Made by a program: the position numbers and the translations under genes | Shown here: positions 5,365 through 13,468 of the stretch, piece after piece | Numbering within the stretch: the first letter of the stretch is position 1 | Layout of the letters: every line of letters begins with the position of its first letter | Notes under the pieces: model-generated | Seen by the model: only the letters and a program-made list of their open reading frames with translations | What the model was told of the DNA's origin: nothing | The model's database searches: none | From: a virus | Virus record (IMG/VR): IMGVR_UViG_3300010938_000648 | Location: 1 to 39,821 of that record | Strand: one strand, 5' to 3' | Length of the DNA stretch: 39,821 nt

Positions 5365-5841
5365 TCACCCCTCCCCTTTCGGGAACGTCAAGACCACGTC
5401 CGCCGGGATATCCTCGTTCCCTGGTTTCTTCGCCTTCACCACCGGGTTCATCCTCTTTCGCAACCCCTGGATGGTTCCCTCGCTGCACTTGATCGCCCGC
5501 GCGATACTCGCGTTCGCGAACCCTTCACGAATCCGATCGCGAATCCAATCTTTCTGTTTGTCGCCGAACAATCCGCGCTTTCCCGTGGACTCGCCGGACT
5601 CGCCGGACTCGCCGGGTTTCTTCGGCGAACCCGGTTTCCACGAATGGAAGTCCGGCCCGATCGCGATCCATCCGGTTCCGAGCTTTTCGCGAATCTCCGG
5701 AACCAGCTTGTCGAGGAACGACAAACGCGCTCGTTCCTCAATTTCCTTCGTCGCCGCCTTGAACCCGGCGACTACCGCCGGATGATCCGGCGGGAGATTC
5801 ATCGCTTTCGCGAGAATCTCGATTTTGAGTACGGTATCCAT
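5365..5841 (-). CDS. HTH-containing putative regulator, 158 aa
   Basis: Residues about 98-131 (DWIRDRIREGFANASIARAI and the following helix) fit a helix-turn-helix of the resolvase/Hin or sigma-like type: a helix, a short turn, then a recognition-type helix after CSEGTIQ. Residues 1-60 are helical, followed by a flexible Gly/Glu/Ser linker made of three GES units encoded by a 9-bp DNA repeat (5587-5613). AAGAGGTG precedes ATG 5841. The gene is read from a sigma70-like promoter carrying a palindrome over the transcription start, so it may be an autoregulated phage regulator. A DNA-binding role is inference from the HTH pattern. Confidence 0.75.
   Translation of the reverse strand: MDTVLKIEILAKAMNLPPDHPAVVAGFKAATKEIEERARLSFLDKLVPEIREKLGTGWIAIGPDFHSWKPGSPKKPGESGESGESTGKRGLFGDKQKDWIRDRIREGFANASIARAIKCSEGTIQGLRKRMNPVVKAKKPGNEDIPADVVLTFPKGEG
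5587..5613. repeat. Three perfect GGACTCGCC nonamers
   Basis: A 9-bp unit is repeated three times without change and encodes Gly-Glu-Ser triplets of the HTH protein linker on the minus strand. Perfect identity suggests recent expansion. Confidence 0.8.
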
Positions 5842-5911: not shown

Positions 5912-5940
5912 TATCTAATACTCGCTTGATATCTCGTCAA
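5912..5940 (-). promoter_or_regulatory. Sigma70-like promoter for the 5841-5169 operon
   Basis: On the minus strand, -35 TTGACG (5940-5935) and -10 TAGATA (5917-5912) are separated by exactly 17 bp, leaving a leader of about 65 nt before ATG 5841. The surrounding DNA is locally A+T-rich. This is the best-supported control for the HTH operon. Confidence 0.7.
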
Positions 5941-6112
5941 GATTTTTTTCTAGGTACGAAAACATCATATACTTTCGAACACTTGCGAGACTCGCGAGAT
6001 TGACTTATCGCGCGGTCTGCTATTGCGAAACGCGCGTGATATCCGTGACTTGCGAACCAGGGACAAGCGCAAGTCAAGCATTCACGCGGTCGAAACCGAT
6101 TTTCGCTTGTCC

Positions 6113-6196
6113 GAGTCCGAGTCCGAATCCGAGTCCGAGTCCAAGTCTGTCCATGAGTCCGAATCCGGGTCTCCGTCCGAGTTCGAGTCTCCGTCC
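6113..6196 (+). repeat. 14-unit GAGTCC-type hexamer array
   Basis: Fourteen consecutive hexamers, mostly GAGTCC or GAATCC with diverged GGGTCT, CCGTCC and GAGTTC units, cover 84 bp with no break in period. Many units create GANTC. All three frames on each strand yield low-complexity peptides, so a coding role is unlikely. Confidence 0.85.
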
Positions 6197-6269
6197 GATT
6201 CACCTATCGCGCGCGTTCCGTGCGCGGACTCCCGGCGCTCTGGACGCCAAGCATAGGGGTATGGCGTCA

Positions 6270-6319: not shown

Positions 6320-6539
6320 GGCCGAAGCGATGGGCCGATGCGTCGGTTCGGTTTCCGGAAGTTCCCCCCCCATACGAAAACGCGCGCAAATCCAGTATTC
6401 ATAAGGTTTTCTTGTGTCCCTAGCGCGTAAGTCCGCGTTATTCCTATGCTTTCTCTCCCTATGGGTACGGACATCTTGGGTTCGCGTGGTTCCGGAAACC
6501 CTTGATGTTGCTTGCCTTTCCGCAACCCCGAAAAAGTTC

Positions 6540-6568
6540 TTGACAAGGTTTCACGCGCGAGATATCCT
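6540..6568 (+). promoter_or_regulatory. Sigma70-like promoter for the ATPase/VWA operon
   Basis: -35 TTGACA (6540-6545), 17-bp spacer, -10 TATCCT (6563-6568). The leader to ATG 6642 is about 65-70 nt and contains palindromes. A perfect inverted repeat (6564-6579) covers the -10 and start site, implying repressor control. Confidence 0.7.
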
Positions 6569-6579
6569 GCAAGCAGGAT
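6564..6579. promoter_or_regulatory. Operator-like palindrome over the -10 box
   Basis: ATCCTGC-AA-GCAGGAT is a perfect 7-bp inverted repeat overlapping the -10 and probable +1 of the rightward promoter. A protein bound here would block polymerase. A further CCGGTC-CTC-GACCGG palindrome lies at 6591-6605 in the leader. Confidence 0.65.
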
Positions 6580-6641: not shown

Positions 6642-7703
6642 ATGTTGAAACGGTTGTTCGATTCCGGCCTTCCGGCCCTGTTCTGGGGGCCGCCGGGGGT
6701 GGGCAAGTCCGCGCTCGTGCGGCAATTCGCCGCCGATCACGGCGTGGAACTGGCGATCATCTACGCCGGAAGGGAGGACCCGTTCGTCCTCAGTGGCCTT
6801 CCGGCGGTTATCGAGGGCCAGACCCGACGGGCCAAGCGTGACTGGCTGGCCCGTCTCGAGGCCGCCCATGCCGCGGGGCGGCCGACGCTCTTGTTCATCG
6901 ATGAGATCTCGACCGCGGCGCCGGCAACCCAGGCCGGCCTCTTGAGTCTGATTCTCGATGGGGAGCTGGACGGACTCCGGCTCCCCGCGAACACAAGGCG
7001 ATGGGCGGCCGCGAACCCGCCTGATCAGGCGGCCGGCGGGTTCGAGTTGGCTCCCCCGCTCGCGAACCGATTGCTGCACTTCGACTGGTCGGCGGTCTTC
7101 TCGGACGCCGACTGGCTCAAGTCTTTCCCGCAATATCTCCAGAACAACGGCGTTCCGCCCGAGGTCGCCGCGTTGACGGCGGCCTACTTGGAGGCGAACC
7201 GTTCGGACATTTGCCGCGTCCCCGCCGACGGCGATGAACGGCGGGGAAAGGCGTTCCCGAGTCGGCGGACCTGGGAATACGCCGCGCGCTTGCTCGCGGC
7301 GTGGAACTGGGCTCCGGGGCGAGAGATTCCGGAACACCTTGCGACGGCTCTCTCGGGGGCCGTCGGCGAGGACGCGGCTCTCAGGTTCTCCGAGTATCTC
7401 CGCTCGGCGGATTTGCCGCGGCCCGAGGACCTGATCTCGGGGGCCGCGGAGCTCCCGGCGAGGGCTGACCTCGCGGGGGCGGCCGTCATGAACTTGATCG
7501 CGTTCTTGCGAGAGCGCGGCGACGATGGCCTGTGGGACAAGGCATGGGGACGGTATCTGAAATGGGCCGAGACCACGGGATTGAAGGGGGTGCTCGCGGC
7601 CCATTTCAAACAGATGTTCGAGGCCAGGAAGACGCGCTCCTACAACATCCCCCTCGGCCCGTTCGAGGGGGTGGTCCGGGCCATGACGGAAAAGGGGGTC
7701 TGA
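6642..7703 (+). CDS. MoxR-type AAA+ ATPase
   Basis: A 353-aa ATPase expected to remodel protein complexes together with a VWA partner. Visible motifs: Walker A GPPGVGKS at 16-23, Walker B LLFIDEI at 83-89 (D87/E88), sensor 1 region AAANPPD around N125, and an arginine-finger-like ANR at 141-143. The N-terminus begins right at the nucleotide-binding core, and a helical C-terminal lid of about 150 residues follows. ATG 6642 has AAAAGGGGAG about 7 nt upstream; upstream codons in the same frame overlap the promoter and are rejected as start. The gene heads an operon with a metallopeptidase/VWA gene, the typical genetic partner of MoxR ATPases. Confidence 0.9.
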   Translation: MLKRLFDSGLPALFWGPPGVGKSALVRQFAADHGVELAIIYAGREDPFVLSGLPAVIEGQTRRAKRDWLARLEAAHAAGRPTLLFIDEISTAAPATQAGLLSLILDGELDGLRLPANTRRWAAANPPDQAAGGFELAPPLANRLLHFDWSAVFSDADWLKSFPQYLQNNGVPPEVAALTAAYLEANRSDICRVPADGDERRGKAFPSRRTWEYAARLLAAWNWAPGREIPEHLATALSGAVGEDAALRFSEYLRSADLPRPEDLISGAAELPARADLAGAAVMNLIAFLRERGDDGLWDKAWGRYLKWAETTGLKGVLAAHFKQMFEARKTRSYNIPLGPFEGVVRAMTEKGV

Positions 7704-7704
7704 C

Positions 7705-8361
7705 ATGGACTACCAGCGCAGCAAACGATTGTTTCTCGAAAGCGGTCTTGGCGAGGGGCCGTTCGATGAATTCTTGAAGACATCCGTCCACCAGGACCTG
7801 ACGATGGCCCTGGTGGAGGATGCGATGTCCCGCCGGTCGTGCTCGACCGCCGGCGGTCGGCTCGCCTACTGCATCATCGGGAATCCTCCCCCGCCGGTCT
7901 ATCGGCGGCGTAGGCGCATCGCGACGGAGAAGCTTGCGCCGGTCATTATGGACTTCGACAACGGCCGGGAAACGGAGGTCGCCGCCGTCCAGATCAGCGA
8001 CACGGTCACGGGGTGGCGCGACCTCACTTCGTTGTATATCAAAGACGACATCATCGCGCCGTTCATTGCGCGCGTCGAGCAAGCGGACCCGGACGCGCTC
8101 AGCGCCGGACCCATCAGGCGGGCGTTCGGCCTTGAGTTTGAGAGCCGTTTGGTTGTGCAGACCGAGCGGCTCCGCGCGACCCCGTGCGTCCGGGCCGCTG
8201 GAGGCTCTTGGGTTCCGAACGAAGCCGCGCACCTGGCTCTGAGGCTCTTTGAACAGATCGCCGCGACCCTCGGCATTCCGTTCCAGGATTGGGCCGCCGG
8301 TCGTTTCGATCCTGCGCGGCCGAACGAGATGCAGGTCGCGAAGGCCGTGGAGGCTCTCTGA
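7705..8361 (+). CDS. Accessory protein of ATPase operon, C-terminal tail family member 1
   Basis: A 218-aa protein lying between the ATPase and VWA genes. I do not recognise its fold. It is predicted soluble, mixed alpha/beta, with a basic RRRRR patch near residue 67-72. Its last residues, GRFDP followed by exactly 15 residues, match the ends of three downstream proteins. Start is one base after the ATPase stop, with AAGGGGG upstream. Its stop overlaps the VWA start as TGATG (8359-8363), so translation is coupled. It may be an adaptor or substrate-delivery factor for the ATPase; this is inference. Confidence 0.82.
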   Translation: MDYQRSKRLFLESGLGEGPFDEFLKTSVHQDLTMALVEDAMSRRSCSTAGGRLAYCIIGNPPPPVYRRRRRIATEKLAPVIMDFDNGRETEVAAVQISDTVTGWRDLTSLYIKDDIIAPFIARVEQADPDALSAGPIRRAFGLEFESRLVVQTERLRATPCVRAAGGSWVPNEAAHLALRLFEQIAATLGIPFQDWAAGRFDPARPNEMQVAKAVEAL

Positions 8362-9836
8362 TGAACACAGCGAACGACAGGGTGATCGCGGCGGTACGGG
8401 CGCTCGCGAAGAAGCGCCCGTTCATCTCGGACATCCTCTCCCGGCTCCGGCCGGTCGAGAGCAGCGAGTGTCCGACGGCCGCCGTCGACAAATGGCTCCG
8501 GGTGTACTACAACCCGGAGTTCGTCGAGCGGCTCACGCAAGACCAGCTGCAAGGGCTGGTCTATCACGAGACCCTGCATATCTTCCTCGCGCATCCGCGG
8601 CGCGGGGAACCCATGCAGGACAGAGCCACGGCGAACATCTCGATGGATTGCGAAATCCACGAGAAGATGCGCCGGGAGGACATCCCGATCCCTCGGCCCG
8701 ATGGTTTCAAGCCTTGCATCGCCCCGGAGATCGGATTGCCCGAGGACCTCAGCGCCGAGGAATACTACGAGGCGCTGAGAAAGCGGGGACAGAAGCCGTC
8801 TCAGGACGGAGACGGCCTTCCCGTTCCCGGCAACGGCGCGCGGGCGGACGAGAAGAGCGGCGCCGGCGGGGATGGTGACCAGGACGCCGACGACGACGAC
8901 AACGAGCCGAAGACCAAGGTGTCCCCTGGTCAAGGCGAAGACCAGGATGAAGAGGCCGGAGGCGCCGCTGGGTCCAGCGACCAGGACGAAGACGGCGACC
9001 AGGACGCCGATTCGGGGTCCGGCGACGGCGACGATGGCGACAGCGACGATGAATCCGGCGCGCCGCCCGCCCCCGGCGATTCCTCGGCGACCGGCGGGAG
9101 CGCCGAATGGGAACTCCCTCCGGATGATCCGAACGAGCCAGGCGTCGAACCCTCCGCGGTGGACGCCGCGGTGCAGAAAGCCTTGCGAGAGGCTTCGGAA
9201 GGCCGCGGCAACGCGCCTGGATGGGCGCGCGACTACGCGGGGGCCGTGCTCCGAGCACGTGTCCCCTGGCGTGTGCTGCTCTCCCGGTACATCCGGGAAG
9301 CGTGCACGCGCAAGGCCGGCGCGTCCGACTACAGTTGGGCGCGCCCGAACGGCTGCATCCCGAAGCCGTTCATCGCGCCTGGTGTGGTCGGTGGACATCC
9401 CCGCGTCGGCGTCATCCTCGACGCAAGCGGCTCGATGATGGGCGGCTTGTATGACCAGGCCGTCGCCGAGGTCGAGGGGATTTGCAAGGCCCTCGAGGCC
9501 GACGTTCACGTCGCCGTGTGCGACACGCGCGTGACGGCCCTGAAGAGGGTCCGCGGGCGCATCGAACTCCCGAAGCCGACCTTCGGGGGTACGGACCTTC
9601 GAGCGGGGTTCGAGGCCCTGCTCAGGGTCCGTCCGCGGATCGGCGTGCTCGTGGTCTTGACCGACTGCGACACGCCTTGGCCTGCGACGCGACCGGCGGT
9701 TCCGGTCGTTGTCGCCAAGATCGGAAACTACGACCGTCGTGCGCCGGAATGGGCGCGGGTCGTGGAGGTCCAGACGCGCTATTCCTTGATCCGAACTGGA
9801 ACCCGCGCGACGAACGCCATGTTGCGATCGCGCTAG
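8361..9836 (+). CDS. Zinc-metallopeptidase-like/VWA fusion (DUF2201 type)
   Basis: A 491-aa protein with an N-terminal putative metallopeptidase domain: HETLH at 69-73, a full HExxH, with H78 nearby and a conserved-looking ANISMDCEIHEKM stretch at 91-103. A long acidic Asp/Gly/Ser linker (about 165-265) follows. The C-terminal VWA-like domain has a MIDAS set: DASGSM, FGGTDL and LTDCD. DUF2201 proteins pair this arrangement with MoxR-type ATPases. Odd feature: the in-frame stop at 9834-9836 lies 16 nt before the next gene, while the -1 frame encodes the operon's shared C-terminal tail and stops at 9851-9853 in a TGATG overlap. A frameshift near the 3' end is therefore likely. Confidence 0.88.
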   Translation: MNTANDRVIAAVRALAKKRPFISDILSRLRPVESSECPTAAVDKWLRVYYNPEFVERLTQDQLQGLVYHETLHIFLAHPRRGEPMQDRATANISMDCEIHEKMRREDIPIPRPDGFKPCIAPEIGLPEDLSAEEYYEALRKRGQKPSQDGDGLPVPGNGARADEKSGAGGDGDQDADDDDNEPKTKVSPGQGEDQDEEAGGAAGSSDQDEDGDQDADSGSGDGDDGDSDDESGAPPAPGDSSATGGSAEWELPPDDPNEPGVEPSAVDAAVQKALREASEGRGNAPGWARDYAGAVLRARVPWRVLLSRYIREACTRKAGASDYSWARPNGCIPKPFIAPGVVGGHPRVGVILDASGSMMGGLYDQAVAEVEGICKALEADVHVAVCDTRVTALKRVRGRIELPKPTFGGTDLRAGFEALLRVRPRIGVLVVLTDCDTPWPATRPAVPVVVAKIGNYDRRAPEWARVVEVQTRYSLIRTGTRATNAMLRSR

Positions 9837-9852
9837 CACTTGAGGTCCTCTG

Positions 9853-10398
9853 ATGGTGCGCGCCGACGACATCCAGACGATGGTGAAGCGGGGCGAGGTC
9901 TTCATCGCTCTGATAGAACACAGGATCGTCGGCGCGGAAGTGCGCGGCAAGCGATTTATCATTGAAGAATCGCCGGCCGTACGATGGGAGCCGATCGGTT
10001 TTCCGTTCCTCCTGCTCTTTTATTATGACAACGAGCATGTCGGCCAGTTCATCTTTGACAGCTGCCGACACGAATTGCGCTGCCCCGACGGACTATCCTA
10101 CGAGGCCGCGATCTTCTGTCCTGGCGATATTGATGTCATCGCCGGTCTGCGATACGACCGCCAAGGCATGGCGTTTGAATATCACGCGCTCGTCGGCGGC
10201 ATACCACGATGGGTCCACATGCCCATAGAACGCTTGACGGATCGCAGAACGATAACCGAGACAGAAATGCGGCCGGCGTCCTACGTCTATCAAGAGTTCG
10301 CCAAAATAGGCGTGCCGTTGGCCGATTACCTGTCCGGAGCATTCAATCCACGTGAACAAGTTCACTGCGCGGTGGCCCGCGCACTGGAGGTGTTATGA
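9853..10398 (+). CDS. Accessory protein, tail family member 2
   Basis: A 181-aa protein of unknown function, probably beta-rich in its central part (LLLFYYDNEHVGQFIF near 54-69). It ends with GAFNP plus exactly 15 residues (REQVHCAVARALEVL), the operon tail. The start overlaps a TGA of the VWA reading in the alternative frame, and GAGGT 8 nt upstream acts as the ribosome binding site. Its own end overlaps the next gene by ATGA. It is distantly similar to the 218-aa neighbour around the tail only. Confidence 0.82.
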   Translation: MVRADDIQTMVKRGEVFIALIEHRIVGAEVRGKRFIIEESPAVRWEPIGFPFLLLFYYDNEHVGQFIFDSCRHELRCPDGLSYEAAIFCPGDIDVIAGLRYDRQGMAFEYHALVGGIPRWVHMPIERLTDRRTITETEMRPASYVYQEFAKIGVPLADYLSGAFNPREQVHCAVARALEVL

Positions 10399-10997
10399 GC
10401 AACATCAGTATCGGCTTTGAACTGCATGAAACACAGAAGACCCTAACATACTGGGTCATCAACAAGGGAGAGCGCGGCGTCTCCGCCGACATCATGTTTG
10501 ACAGCCTGGAGTACGTCGTCGAGGGCATCCTCCTCACACGCGGCGGCGCCAGCATGGTGCTCCAGACAAGCGACTGGGACGAGTACGGGCAGAGGGATAT
10601 CCGTCTCGTGTCCGATATCCCGTCGGCCTTCCGCGCCGATGGGTTTTACCAGCAGGCCCGCGGACTCGTGCTGCCGGAAAACATCACATCCGGCGGCGCA
10701 CTCATCTGCGGCTGCGAGCGCGGGTCGTATCAAATCTCCGACAACATCGCCGCCTCATACAACGATCTCATCGAGCCGGATGGGAGCAAGTATTTCGTCA
10801 GAGAATGGTTCTGTTTCAGATATCGCAGGGCCAGTTTCAAACTCTGGCCGTTGATCCCGCGGTCGGAGTACAACGAAGAGGCGTGGCAGGCAATCAGGAA
10901 GATGCCACTCGACATCTATCTGGACATCATGAATGGCCGCCTGAACCCATTGGATGACCAGGCCAGGAGGACCATGTTTGCAATCGGCCTGATCTGA
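10395..10997 (+). CDS. Accessory protein, tail family member 3
   Basis: A 200-aa unknown protein. It is clearly a paralogue of the next gene: both share a segment [SD]-x-x-P-[SA] then xxDGxY (around 76-85 here), a REWFCFRY/RKWFVFEL strand (about 137-144), and a LDIxNGxx[ND]P ending followed by 15 residues. No membrane segment or metal site is obvious. G+C is somewhat lower here than in the ATPase gene, suggesting separate acquisition. GGAGG in the preceding gene's last codons supports ATG 10395. Confidence 0.82.
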   Translation: MSNISIGFELHETQKTLTYWVINKGERGVSADIMFDSLEYVVEGILLTRGGASMVLQTSDWDEYGQRDIRLVSDIPSAFRADGFYQQARGLVLPENITSGGALICGCERGSYQISDNIAASYNDLIEPDGSKYFVREWFCFRYRRASFKLWPLIPRSEYNEEAWQAIRKMPLDIYLDIMNGRLNPLDDQARRTMFAIGLI

Positions 10998-11009
10998 AAG
11001 GAGGACGCC

Positions 11010-11588
11010 ATGAAAGAAAGTTGGACACAGTTGGACGTTTTCTTCTTTCCAGAAAGACATCTCCTGGAGCTTCGTTTGATGACCAAAGGGGAAGAGCCGT
11101 CTTTCCGTTCATCATTCAATGCAGAGATAGCACGCTTCGCGGCCGATCATTTTGTGTTACGTGTGGGGGATGTCGAGCTGCGCTGCGAGACGTATACCCA
11201 TTTTCCCAATATCAAGATTCTCGACCTTCTACCGGCGGTCCTGAAAACGGACGGGCTCTACGAATGGGCCAGCAAAAATCTCGTCCAATGTGGACGCGGA
11301 TACCTGATTGGATACGATGGCCCAGAGCATCGTACCAAGTATGCGATCCTACGTGAAAACCAGGTCATTGAGCCACGAGAGACTCCGTATCTGACGCGGA
11401 AATGGTTTGTGTTCGAACTCATCTGCGCTGGCGGAATACTCTGGCCTTATCTGCCGATGGACGAAGGGCGGTCCGCTGTATCAACTGGCAACATCGACAT
11501 CGCGATGCTGCTTGACATCGCGAACGGCGTCGTGGACCCATTCGATGAGCAGCAGCGCAAGGCCATGCTCGCCGTATCCGCGATCTAG
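11010..11588 (+). CDS. Accessory protein, tail family member 4
   Basis: A 192-aa paralogue of the 200-aa protein upstream, probably by tandem duplication followed by divergence. It has the same RKWFVFEL strand and a final NGVVDP plus 15 residues. AAAGGAGG lies about 7 nt before ATG 11010. Its TAG stop (11586-11588) shares the palindrome CTAG with the TAG of the convergent terminase gene, leaving no space for an intergenic terminator. Function is unknown; context points to the ATPase/VWA machine. Confidence 0.82.
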   Translation: MKESWTQLDVFFFPERHLLELRLMTKGEEPSFRSSFNAEIARFAADHFVLRVGDVELRCETYTHFPNIKILDLLPAVLKTDGLYEWASKNLVQCGRGYLIGYDGPEHRTKYAILRENQVIEPRETPYLTRKWFVFELICAGGILWPYLPMDEGRSAVSTGNIDIAMLLDIANGVVDPFDEQQRKAMLAVSAI

Positions 11589-13468
11589 GCCCGCCCGAAT
11601 CGCGTACCCAGGACGCGCCGCACCCACGAGTCCGGGTCGTCGTCGGCCGGAAGAACGTCTGGCAGCGCGCTCGCATCCCAAGCATCATGCCCATCGCGCA
11701 TCCATGACTGTTCCGTGACCAGCGCCGTCCATGCATGCGCGGCCGCCCAAACACGGTCGTCGCGCAGCCGTCCGACTGGCAGCCCGTTCTTCACGATGAA
11801 CTCGGCGATCTCCTCGGCGAGTCCGGGCGAACGCACGACAGCGCGCCCAGATTCGAGCATCGCTCGAAATCGCGTCAGATACTCCATGCGCGTGCGGGGC
11901 GATACGAGCGAGCCAGGAACAGCGGATGCCGCCGTGCCCTTGCGGTCTGTCAGATACGTGTAGTGCTGGCGCACGTCCTCGCGCTCTTCCATCGCGTGGG
12001 CCAGAGATGACCCGATGTGATTGCGTTCGATGTTCACGAGCGCGTCGTTGTAATGCTTGGCAAGCGCCACGATGTACTCGACGAGTTCCTCTGCGTGAAT
12101 CTCTGGGGACCAGAACTCGGCGACCTGTTCGCCGGTCTGCGACCACACAGAGATCACGCTCGCAGAGACATCGTGCTGGTTGTCCAGGCGCACGATGCCC
12201 TGGCCAAGCGCGCAGTCAACGCCGACGTAATACGAGACGCCCTCCCGAGGCGGCTCCCAAACGCGCATGTACATGAACTTGCCAGGAATACCCGAATGCC
12301 GTCTGATGTACGGCGGCTCCTGACTCGACACGTATTCCATCTCGACGAAGGATTTCTCTTCGGAGGTCCGATGCGCAGCAGCAATCACCTTCGGAGAGAA
12401 GAACGCCGAGGATGTCGCGAGGAAAGCATCGCCAGGGCTCGCCGGGAATTCCTGGTTGAACTTCCCGAGGTCTCCGTTGGCCTTGAGCATTCCGTCGTGC
12501 AGGAGCCACCAGAAGTTCCCTGGGGTGATTTCGCCTGGGTGCTCGTGCAGCAGCCGATAGACGTAGTGATACCAGTTCGTGACAGCCTGGTTCGTCACCG
12601 GGACCCGTAGGGCCTCCGCGATCAGCCGAGGCCATTCCGCTTCCGGTGGTATCTCCTTGGCCTCAGGAATCGAGTACTTCTCGCACTCGTACCACGGCGA
12701 GAACAGGGCCTCGAGACCATTCGCACCCTGCTCGGCGAGTCGCCACATCTCGTAGAACAGGCCGGATGGTCCCCAGGCCGTACTCTCGATCGTCGCGTTC
12801 GCGTAGTGACAGACATGTGCGTCTGGTACACGGGCCAGGATCGCCTTCATCACATCGTCAGGGCTCCTGGCGACGCCCTCTGGCCAGAAGGCAAGTTCGC
12901 TCACATGAAGCAGTTGCGACGCCATGCTGCGCCCCGCGGCTCTGCCAGTGAAAGCGCTGACAATCCGCACCTCGCTGCGTCCAACCCTGAATGTGATGTC
13001 AGTATCAGTGCGCGGCGACGAGATTTTCGGCGGGTCCTTGAGCACGGTTCGCAGCTGGCAGCAGATTTCGTAAACGTAGTGATAGGCAACGTGCCGGGCC
13101 ACATCCATTTTGTTTGCGGCGATCGCCAGACGCGCACCATCGAAACGCATCAGGTCAATCGCATTGGCCGCACCGATGATAGTGGACATGCCGATCTGGC
13201 CTGGTTTCAGCACCACGATCTTCGGCGTTCGCCCCTCGTCGAAGGCCCTTTGTCGCATCTGGAGATAGCGTTTCTGTGGGGTCCAGAGTTTCCATGGTTG
13301 CGGGAGGCCGTCGGGTCCGGTCACCTTCAGATATCGTTCGATGATCTCTTCGTATGGCGGCCGCTCGCAGATCGGTCTATCGGCTTTCTTCTTCTTGACA
13401 ATCGGCAGGGCGCGCAGCTCGTCAAGCTCGGCCAGGAACACGCCTTTTCGTGGTTTCGCCTTCCACAT
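11585..13468 (-). CDS. terL: Terminase large subunit
   Basis: The packaging motor: ATPase that pumps DNA into the procapsid through the portal, plus the nuclease that cuts concatemers. The 627-aa protein has a deviant Walker A KPGQIGMST at 88-96 and a Walker B-like LLHVSE ending at S190/E191, the HxSE form known in some terminases in place of a DE pair. The C-terminal nuclease shows GVD (in YYVGVDCALG), NIERN and DDRVWAA, consistent with acidic metal ligands of an RNase H-like fold. ACGAGGACGC precedes ATG 13468. It is last in the late operon, as gp19 is in T7. Confidence 0.93.
   Translation of the reverse strand: MWKAKPRKGVFLAELDELRALPIVKKKKADRPICERPPYEEIIERYLKVTGPDGLPQPWKLWTPQKRYLQMRQRAFDEGRTPKIVVLKPGQIGMSTIIGAANAIDLMRFDGARLAIAANKMDVARHVAYHYVYEICCQLRTVLKDPPKISSPRTDTDITFRVGRSEVRIVSAFTGRAAGRSMASQLLHVSELAFWPEGVARSPDDVMKAILARVPDAHVCHYANATIESTAWGPSGLFYEMWRLAEQGANGLEALFSPWYECEKYSIPEAKEIPPEAEWPRLIAEALRVPVTNQAVTNWYHYVYRLLHEHPGEITPGNFWWLLHDGMLKANGDLGKFNQEFPASPGDAFLATSSAFFSPKVIAAAHRTSEEKSFVEMEYVSSQEPPYIRRHSGIPGKFMYMRVWEPPREGVSYYVGVDCALGQGIVRLDNQHDVSASVISVWSQTGEQVAEFWSPEIHAEELVEYIVALAKHYNDALVNIERNHIGSSLAHAMEEREDVRQHYTYLTDRKGTAASAVPGSLVSPRTRMEYLTRFRAMLESGRAVVRSPGLAEEIAEFIVKNGLPVGRLRDDRVWAAAHAWTALVTEQSWMRDGHDAWDASALPDVLPADDDPDSWVRRVLGTRFGRA

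Follow-up and report, generated by a model that had tools for sequence, protein, structure and literature searches.

A known phage ATPase/metallopeptidase-VWA pair in an operon with four small proteins that share a C-terminal module

Introduction

An operon in which a phage encodes an AAA+ ATPase, a metallopeptidase-VWA protein and four small proteins of no known family raises the question of whether it constitutes a new system, or a known one to which something has been added. The operon in question consists of six contiguous open reading frames (ORFs) on the plus strand, at 6642-11588 of a window (the whole stretch of DNA analysed) comprising 39,821 bases of the 41,841-base IMG/VR virus record IMGVR_UViG_3300010938_000648. 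An earlier note, made from the sequence alone, had proposed it as a candidate undescribed system. We find that the operon is real, that its core is known and that its accessory set is lineage-specific and internally related. What is new here is that the accessory proteins, P2, P4, P5 and P6, are not four independent families and have a common C-terminal module. The ATPase-VWA pair occurs in many phages and is listed in the protein core of N4-like phages, and no demonstrated substrate in tailed phages was encountered in the literature found. Co-operonic proteins that carry one short C-terminal module are concrete candidates for clients or adaptors of this machine.

Results

A C-terminal module shared by the accessory proteins

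The six ORFs lie where the earlier note had placed them. All were recovered by a codon-usage gene caller, with ribosome-binding sites and scores of 18-80. Neighbouring genes of the operon abut or share a few bases, as in the stop/start overlaps TGATG and ATGA.

6642..7703, plus strand: AAA+ ATPase (P0001), AAA_5/midasin-like, N4 gp24 homolog (PHROG_1297, Pfam)
7705..8361, plus strand: accessory P2 (P0002), 218 residues, C-terminal end formed by the shared module
8361..9836, plus strand: metallopeptidase (HExxH)-acidic linker-VWA protein (P0003), N4 gp25-type (DUF2201, PHROG_1314)
9853..10398, plus strand: accessory P4 (P0004), 181 residues, C-terminal end formed by the shared module
10395..10997, plus strand: accessory P5 (P0005), 200 residues, paralog of P6, C-terminal end formed by the shared module
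11010..11588, plus strand: accessory P6 (P0006), 192 residues, paralog of P5, C-terminal end formed by the shared module

P2, P4, P5 and P6 all end in a gapless module of 27 residues, overlooked in the earlier note, in which a hydrophobic residue, N or D, and P are followed by an alanine-rich, helix-like segment. A further copy was found at the end of the VWA gene, bringing the number in the operon to five.

8278..8361, plus strand: module copy 1 (end of P2), PFQDWAAGRFDPARPNEMQVAKAVEAL and stop
9770..9853, plus strand: module copy 2, in the -1 frame relative to the VWA gene, PDALFLDPNWNPRDERHVAIALALEVL and stop
10315..10398, plus strand: module copy 3 (end of P4), PLADYLSGAFNPREQVHCAVARALEVL and stop
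10914..10997, plus strand: module copy 4 (end of P5), IYLDIMNGRLNPLDDQARRTMFAIGLI and stop
11505..11588, plus strand: module copy 5 (end of P6), MLLDIANGVVDPFDEQQRKAMLAVSAI and stop

When profiles were built by leaving out one copy at a time, each of the five copies was recovered as the best non-training match among 800 C-termini of the window (E 4e-5 to 0.016), with the first background match at 0.11 or weaker in every run. The pairs P2-P4, V-P4 and P5-P6 (V denoting the copy at the VWA gene) score 63-65, corresponding to a z of about 13; by comparison, only 3 of 29,161 tail pairs taken from related loci score at least 60, one from a repeat protein and two from low-complexity sequence. In addition, P5 and P6 are paralogs along 135 residues (E=2e-16), a relationship that had also been missed. 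With this tail in common, the extra proteins appear to belong together as a matched set, and the idea of four unrelated accessory families is rejected in part, on the strength of the module and the P5-P6 paralogy.

At the level of databases, the description of the four as unplaceable is correct. Searches with P2, P4, P5 and P6 returned zero matches in Pfam, NCBIfam, PADLOC and phage genomes and none of significance in PHROGs, and a P4 query and a P5/P6 profile gave no significant match among PDB sequences. Relatives of the accessories were not found by tblastn in 50,697 phage records (E<=1), nor in five scans of IMG/VR and GTDB genome contigs, which detect close relatives only, nor by profiles of the accessory bodies and the module on fetched loci (127 loci examined). 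The earlier note had made its proposal depend on the gene set recurring in related phages: the core pair does so in many phages, whereas none of those searched yielded the accessory set.

The core pair

The ATPase carries intact Walker A (GPPGVGKS) and Walker B (LLFIDE) motifs and matches PHROG_1297 (E=4.4e-39), and relatives were detected in 360 phage records, N4 gp24 included. Its description as a MoxR-type AAA+ protein is right as to AAA+ and loose as to MoxR. Pfam AAA and AAA_5 were both matched, the latter at 30 against a cut-off of 22, whereas AAA_3 (PF07726, the MoxR model) reached 14.0 bits and the bpMoxR model 11.7 bits, each below a cut-off of 27. A profile of six phage ATPases found midasin as its best PDB match (about 1e-49), with the next non-midasin entry at 6e-12. 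In midasin, a VWA domain works together with an AAA ring. The closest cellular relatives of the ATPase (loci L100-L129) are mostly found in Actinomycetota chromosomes (Nonomuraea, Acidimicrobiales), as adjacent ATPase-VWA gene pairs; the Actinomycetota relatives show about 37% identity, above most phage relatives.

The partner protein matches PHROG_1314 (E=2.7e-49) as well as Pfam DUF2201_N, a putative metallopeptidase (E=1.7e-35), and the VWA-like DUF2201 (E=2.4e-21), both above cut-off. The peptidase motif HETLH is located at residue 69, and the metal-ion-dependent adhesion site (MIDAS) is intact (DASGS 354, GGTD 409, TDCD 434). Residues H69, E70, H73, H78, N92 and D96, together with those of the MIDAS, are invariant across seven VWA homologs. 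The two domains are separated by an acidic low-complexity linker (8853-9191) containing 35 D/E in 111 residues. PHROG_1314 is labelled 'HNH endonuclease', yet the family matched here is a metallopeptidase-VWA family; several phage records likewise name the matching gene as an HNH or homing endonuclease.

Of the viral loci surveyed, 95 carry the ATPase; the VWA gene accompanies it in 81 of these, on the same strand in 79 of the 81, and the loci lacking it include short contigs. Here, the two genes lie close together on one strand, separated by a single gene encoding the 218-residue P2. The N4 gp24 neighbour, gp25, has been described as a vWFA-superfamily protein, and assignment of the core to the widespread phage pair of the N4 gp24/gp25 type (PHROG_1297/1314) is secure. 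Both are tabulated as core proteins in a panproteome of N4-like phages (PMC7650795). The passages of Iyer et al. 2021 (PMC7824862) on group 2.2 jumbo phages describe a MoxR AAA+ ATPase with a vWA protein bearing an N-terminal metallopeptidase, and propose a role for the pair in virion assembly with proteolytic processing. The core pair is thus not new, since it is matched by known PHROG families and published descriptions. The earlier note had correctly recognised an ATPase/metallopeptidase-VWA pair, and its claim of an undescribed system is rejected for this core.

A fifth module copy at the end of the VWA gene

Copy 2 (9770-9853), which had gone unnoticed, closely resembles the tail of P4 (z about 13). 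By codon-usage log-odds, the VWA frame is preferred as far as about 9765; from about 9780 onwards the preference passes to the -1 frame and the VWA frame is clearly disfavoured. VWA homologs of other phages end at, or a few residues from, the start of this copy. Its stop codon overlaps the P4 start codon (TGATG), an arrangement repeated where P2 meets the VWA gene. The VWA reading frame runs on for about 20 residues to a stop of its own. No slippery heptamer was found near the frame switch.

A fusion of the VWA protein with the module probably existed and would now be split by a -1 frameshift; alternatively, the module may be what is left of a deleted tail gene. We have a slight preference for the fusion, its single frameshift being either natural or an error in the sequence, given that the module starts right at the junction and is not preceded by any accessory body. 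A programmed -1 shift is a minor possibility. That copy 2 is instead the decayed remnant of a deleted tail gene, irrelevant to the VWA protein, is quite possible, if short of probable, and would be compatible with any of the other explanations weighed below: the VWA proteins of other phages are module-free and stop where the module starts, a slippery heptamer was not found, and the VWA frame continues to its own stop. Such a remnant would, however, not be expected to break exactly at the module start with no accessory body before it, to show coding usage in the -1 frame, or to end in a stop codon overlapping the next start codon, as happens between P2 and the VWA gene.

Upstream region, composition and gene neighbourhood

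The operon was said to have its own promoter and an operator-like palindrome, and both sequences are present.

6540..6568, plus strand: sigma-70-like promoter TTGACA-N17-TATCCT, 10/12 consensus matches
6564..6579, no strand assigned: perfect palindrome ATCCTGCAAGCAGGAT, ATCCTGC-AA-GCAGGAT (7+2+7), operator-like, overlapping the -10 region

The number of promoter-like sites in the region does not exceed that in shuffled sequence (2 versus 1.2 ± 0.9). Since consensus matches are not in excess, it is the placement of the two elements that argues for their relevance; the palindrome, which has one exact occurrence in the window, could act as an operator given its position. GTCCGA/18-nucleotide tandem repeats lie at 6109-6198, between the minus-strand genes to the left and the operon promoter. 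A 33-nucleotide inverted element (5923-5955 and 6525-6557; 76% complementary), which contains TTGAC and is promoter-like, has its copies upstream of the operon and of a divergent gene at 5365-5841 with weak helix-turn-helix similarity.

The guanine-cytosine (GC) content of the ATPase, P2 and VWA genes is 65-68% (P2 64.7%), and that of P4, P5 and P6 is 53-57%. The fall from about 68% occurs from about 9850, at the start of P4, and was not remarked on previously. This suggests that P4, P5 and P6 arrived or evolved separately from the core.

According to PHROG matches, the minus strand at 11585-32808 carries portal, major head protein, internal virion protein and terminase-like genes, and methyltransferase, replication-initiator-like and recombination genes are found on the plus strand of the window. 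The earlier placement of the operon apart from replication and virion genes is only half correct as regards the virion genes: its end lies 4 nucleotides inside a convergent gene (11585-13468) resembling the terminase large subunit (PHROG_38, E=0.0027). A search of IMG/VR with this terminase-like protein for sister phages found no relative, and the operon DNA had zero matches, and thus no near relative, among the 50,697 phage records. No tRNA was found in the window, and an Rfam scan of it found no RNA family.

Tail-sharing genes beside the pair in other loci

Arrays of small proteins with other shared C-termini were observed beside the pair in three further loci (L021, L033 and L057), in none of which was the module of the window found. 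In L021 (12901-14369), several tail-sharing genes lie downstream of the ATPase-VWA pair, the first, directly next to the pair, being a reverse transcriptase ORF (RVT_1, E=6e-15) whose C-terminus resembles the tails of the small genes that follow; it may represent a retroelement associated with the pair, diversity-generating or of another type. Small genes between and after the ATPase and VWA genes in L033 (7440-10256) and L057 (10983-11992) share a different C-terminus (L..LSPE.IARA.A). As a general rule, a pair flanked by tail-sharing arrays is rejected: examples exist, with no enrichment over control genes drawn from the same contigs (13 of 4,220 gene pairs near the ATPase-VWA pair versus 19 of 4,428 control-gene pairs at z>=5). 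Generalisation is a lead only, because of this and because the module of the window is not in the three loci.

Discussion

Judging from sequence, the operon most likely serves to remodel or process complexes of viral proteins, the module acting as a docking tail. The ATPase would form a ring on which the VWA protein docks, gripping a client via its MIDAS site; the ATPase would then pull the client into an altered shape, and the HExxH domain could clip it. Complexes of virion proteins or of other viral proteins would be the likeliest targets. The four extra proteins would represent a lineage-specific matched set generated by duplication and module sharing, each combining a body of its own with the common module as a tail that docks clients or adaptors on the same machine. 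We regard this combination, a known phage remodelling or processing pair served by lineage-specific proteins, clients or adaptors, that dock through a common tail, as a tentative reading with a little under an even chance of being right. An assembly role is consistent with the phage RPP1, where genes for virion proteins neighbour the gp24/gp25 homologs in a gene cluster inferred to be active in mid-infection, and with a similar non-late structural cluster reported for LIT1 (PMC4193335). The place of gp24/gp25 among the N4-like core proteins and the assignment of the ATPase-VWA pair p618/p892 of the archaeal virus ATV to tail development (PMC4124505) point in this direction as well. The PA5oct ATPase record, which bears an 'ESI-MS/MS' note, was also counted towards this lead.

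Several results weigh against the docking-tail proposal. No mutual homology was detected between the bodies of P2, P4 and P5/P6 (scores at shuffle level, hhalign null), so that full-length homology of P2 and P4 to P5/P6 is unsupported, and the AlphaFold models of P4 and P5 are unusable, with a predicted local distance difference test (pLDDT) score of 39. Across the two groups of module copies, P2/P4/V and P5/P6, similarity is modest, and it is weaker than within either group; a profile of either group by itself did not recover the other. In the homolog alignment, the module is not present in VWA proteins of other phages, and tail sharing is not enriched near the pair. N4 gp24 and gp25 are middle and not late genes (PMC4193335), which fits assembly less well. 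Finally, docking by the module is itself a prediction from sequence.

The timing of the N4 genes would suit a role in host takeover or counter-defence, in which the ATPase/VWA-peptidase dismantles or cleaves host complexes early and the extra proteins act as adaptors for host targets. This would also agree with a promoter of its own bearing an operator-like palindrome, with an orientation opposite to the virion genes and shared with the methyltransferase and replication-initiator-like genes, and with accessories that are lineage-specific, as expected of target adaptors. We nevertheless consider it rather doubtful, as the published proposals and the neighbouring virion proteins point to assembly, and none of the proteins is linked to a host target. 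Compared with known anti-phage defence in PADLOC, the ATPase gave weak, generic AAA matches and the other proteins zero. The same absence of a specific PADLOC match, together with membership of the pair in a phage family, makes it very improbable that the operon belongs, as a phage-borne relative, with the MoxR-vWA ternary conflict systems and is aimed at competing phages. MoxR-vWA pairs with diversifying third components have been proposed as conflict systems (PMC7159879), but the bpMoxR score here is 11.7 against a cut-off of 27, and a third component (VMAP, iSTAND, FtsH or beta-propeller) was not recognised by Pfam or NCBIfam in P2, P4, P5 or P6.

It is also conceivable, if unlikely, that the accessories are passengers, a small duplicating gene family that lies beside the pair by chance and works independently. 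The drop in GC content where P4 begins, from 68% to 53-57%, would be explained in this way, as would the absence of accessory relatives from every other locus with the pair examined and the finding that tail-sharing gene pairs are equally common elsewhere in the same phage contigs. Harder to reconcile with passengers are P2, which separates the ATPase gene from the VWA gene and is similar to both in composition (64.7% GC), the overlapping and abutting genes (TGATG, ATGA), and a module copy joined to the end of the VWA gene. If the module does bind the machine, this would explain target choice; if not, the operon amounts to a small orphan gene family next to a pair that is already known. An extension of the docking-tail proposal, which we regard as speculative and quite improbable, treats the short common tail as an address label that admits several unrelated bodies to one machine, together with some of the VWA partner by way of the -1 frameshift. 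Different tails may be used likewise by other phages, with L021, L033 and L057 as candidates.

Comparison with known systems

The MoxR-vWA ternary conflict systems (Kaur et al. 2020, PMC7159879) resemble the operon in their MoxR-vWA logic and additional components, and differ in that their defining third components are not recognised here and the bpMoxR cut-off is not reached. Midasin (Rea1/Mdn1) is the best solved-structure match of the phage ATPase profile and likewise combines an AAA ring with a MIDAS/VWA domain. However, it is a giant eukaryotic protein of a single chain that works on ribosome precursors, whereas ring and VWA proteins are separate here and the VWA protein has a peptidase domain. 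The archaeal virus ATV encodes a MoxR-type ATPase/VWA pair, p618/p892, assigned to tail development (Scheele et al. 2011, as summarised in PMC4124505). By description this is a similar viral ATPase-VWA pair, and its ATPase binds further virus proteins; in contrast to the pair here, a metallopeptidase domain is not reported for p618/p892 in that summary. The jumbo-phage pair (PMC7824862) shares the combination of an ATPase with a vWA protein fused to an N-terminal metallopeptidase, but tail-sharing accessories are not mentioned in the passages describing it, and the ATPase here is AAA_5/midasin and not Pfam MoxR. A further close parallel is N4 gp24/gp25, in which the same AAA+ and metallopeptidase-VWA families are encoded by neighbouring genes on one strand. 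The N4 genome is 70 kilobases, compared with 42 for the record studied here, and has no detected module-bearing accessories, whereas in the present operon one such protein is encoded between the two genes and three after them.

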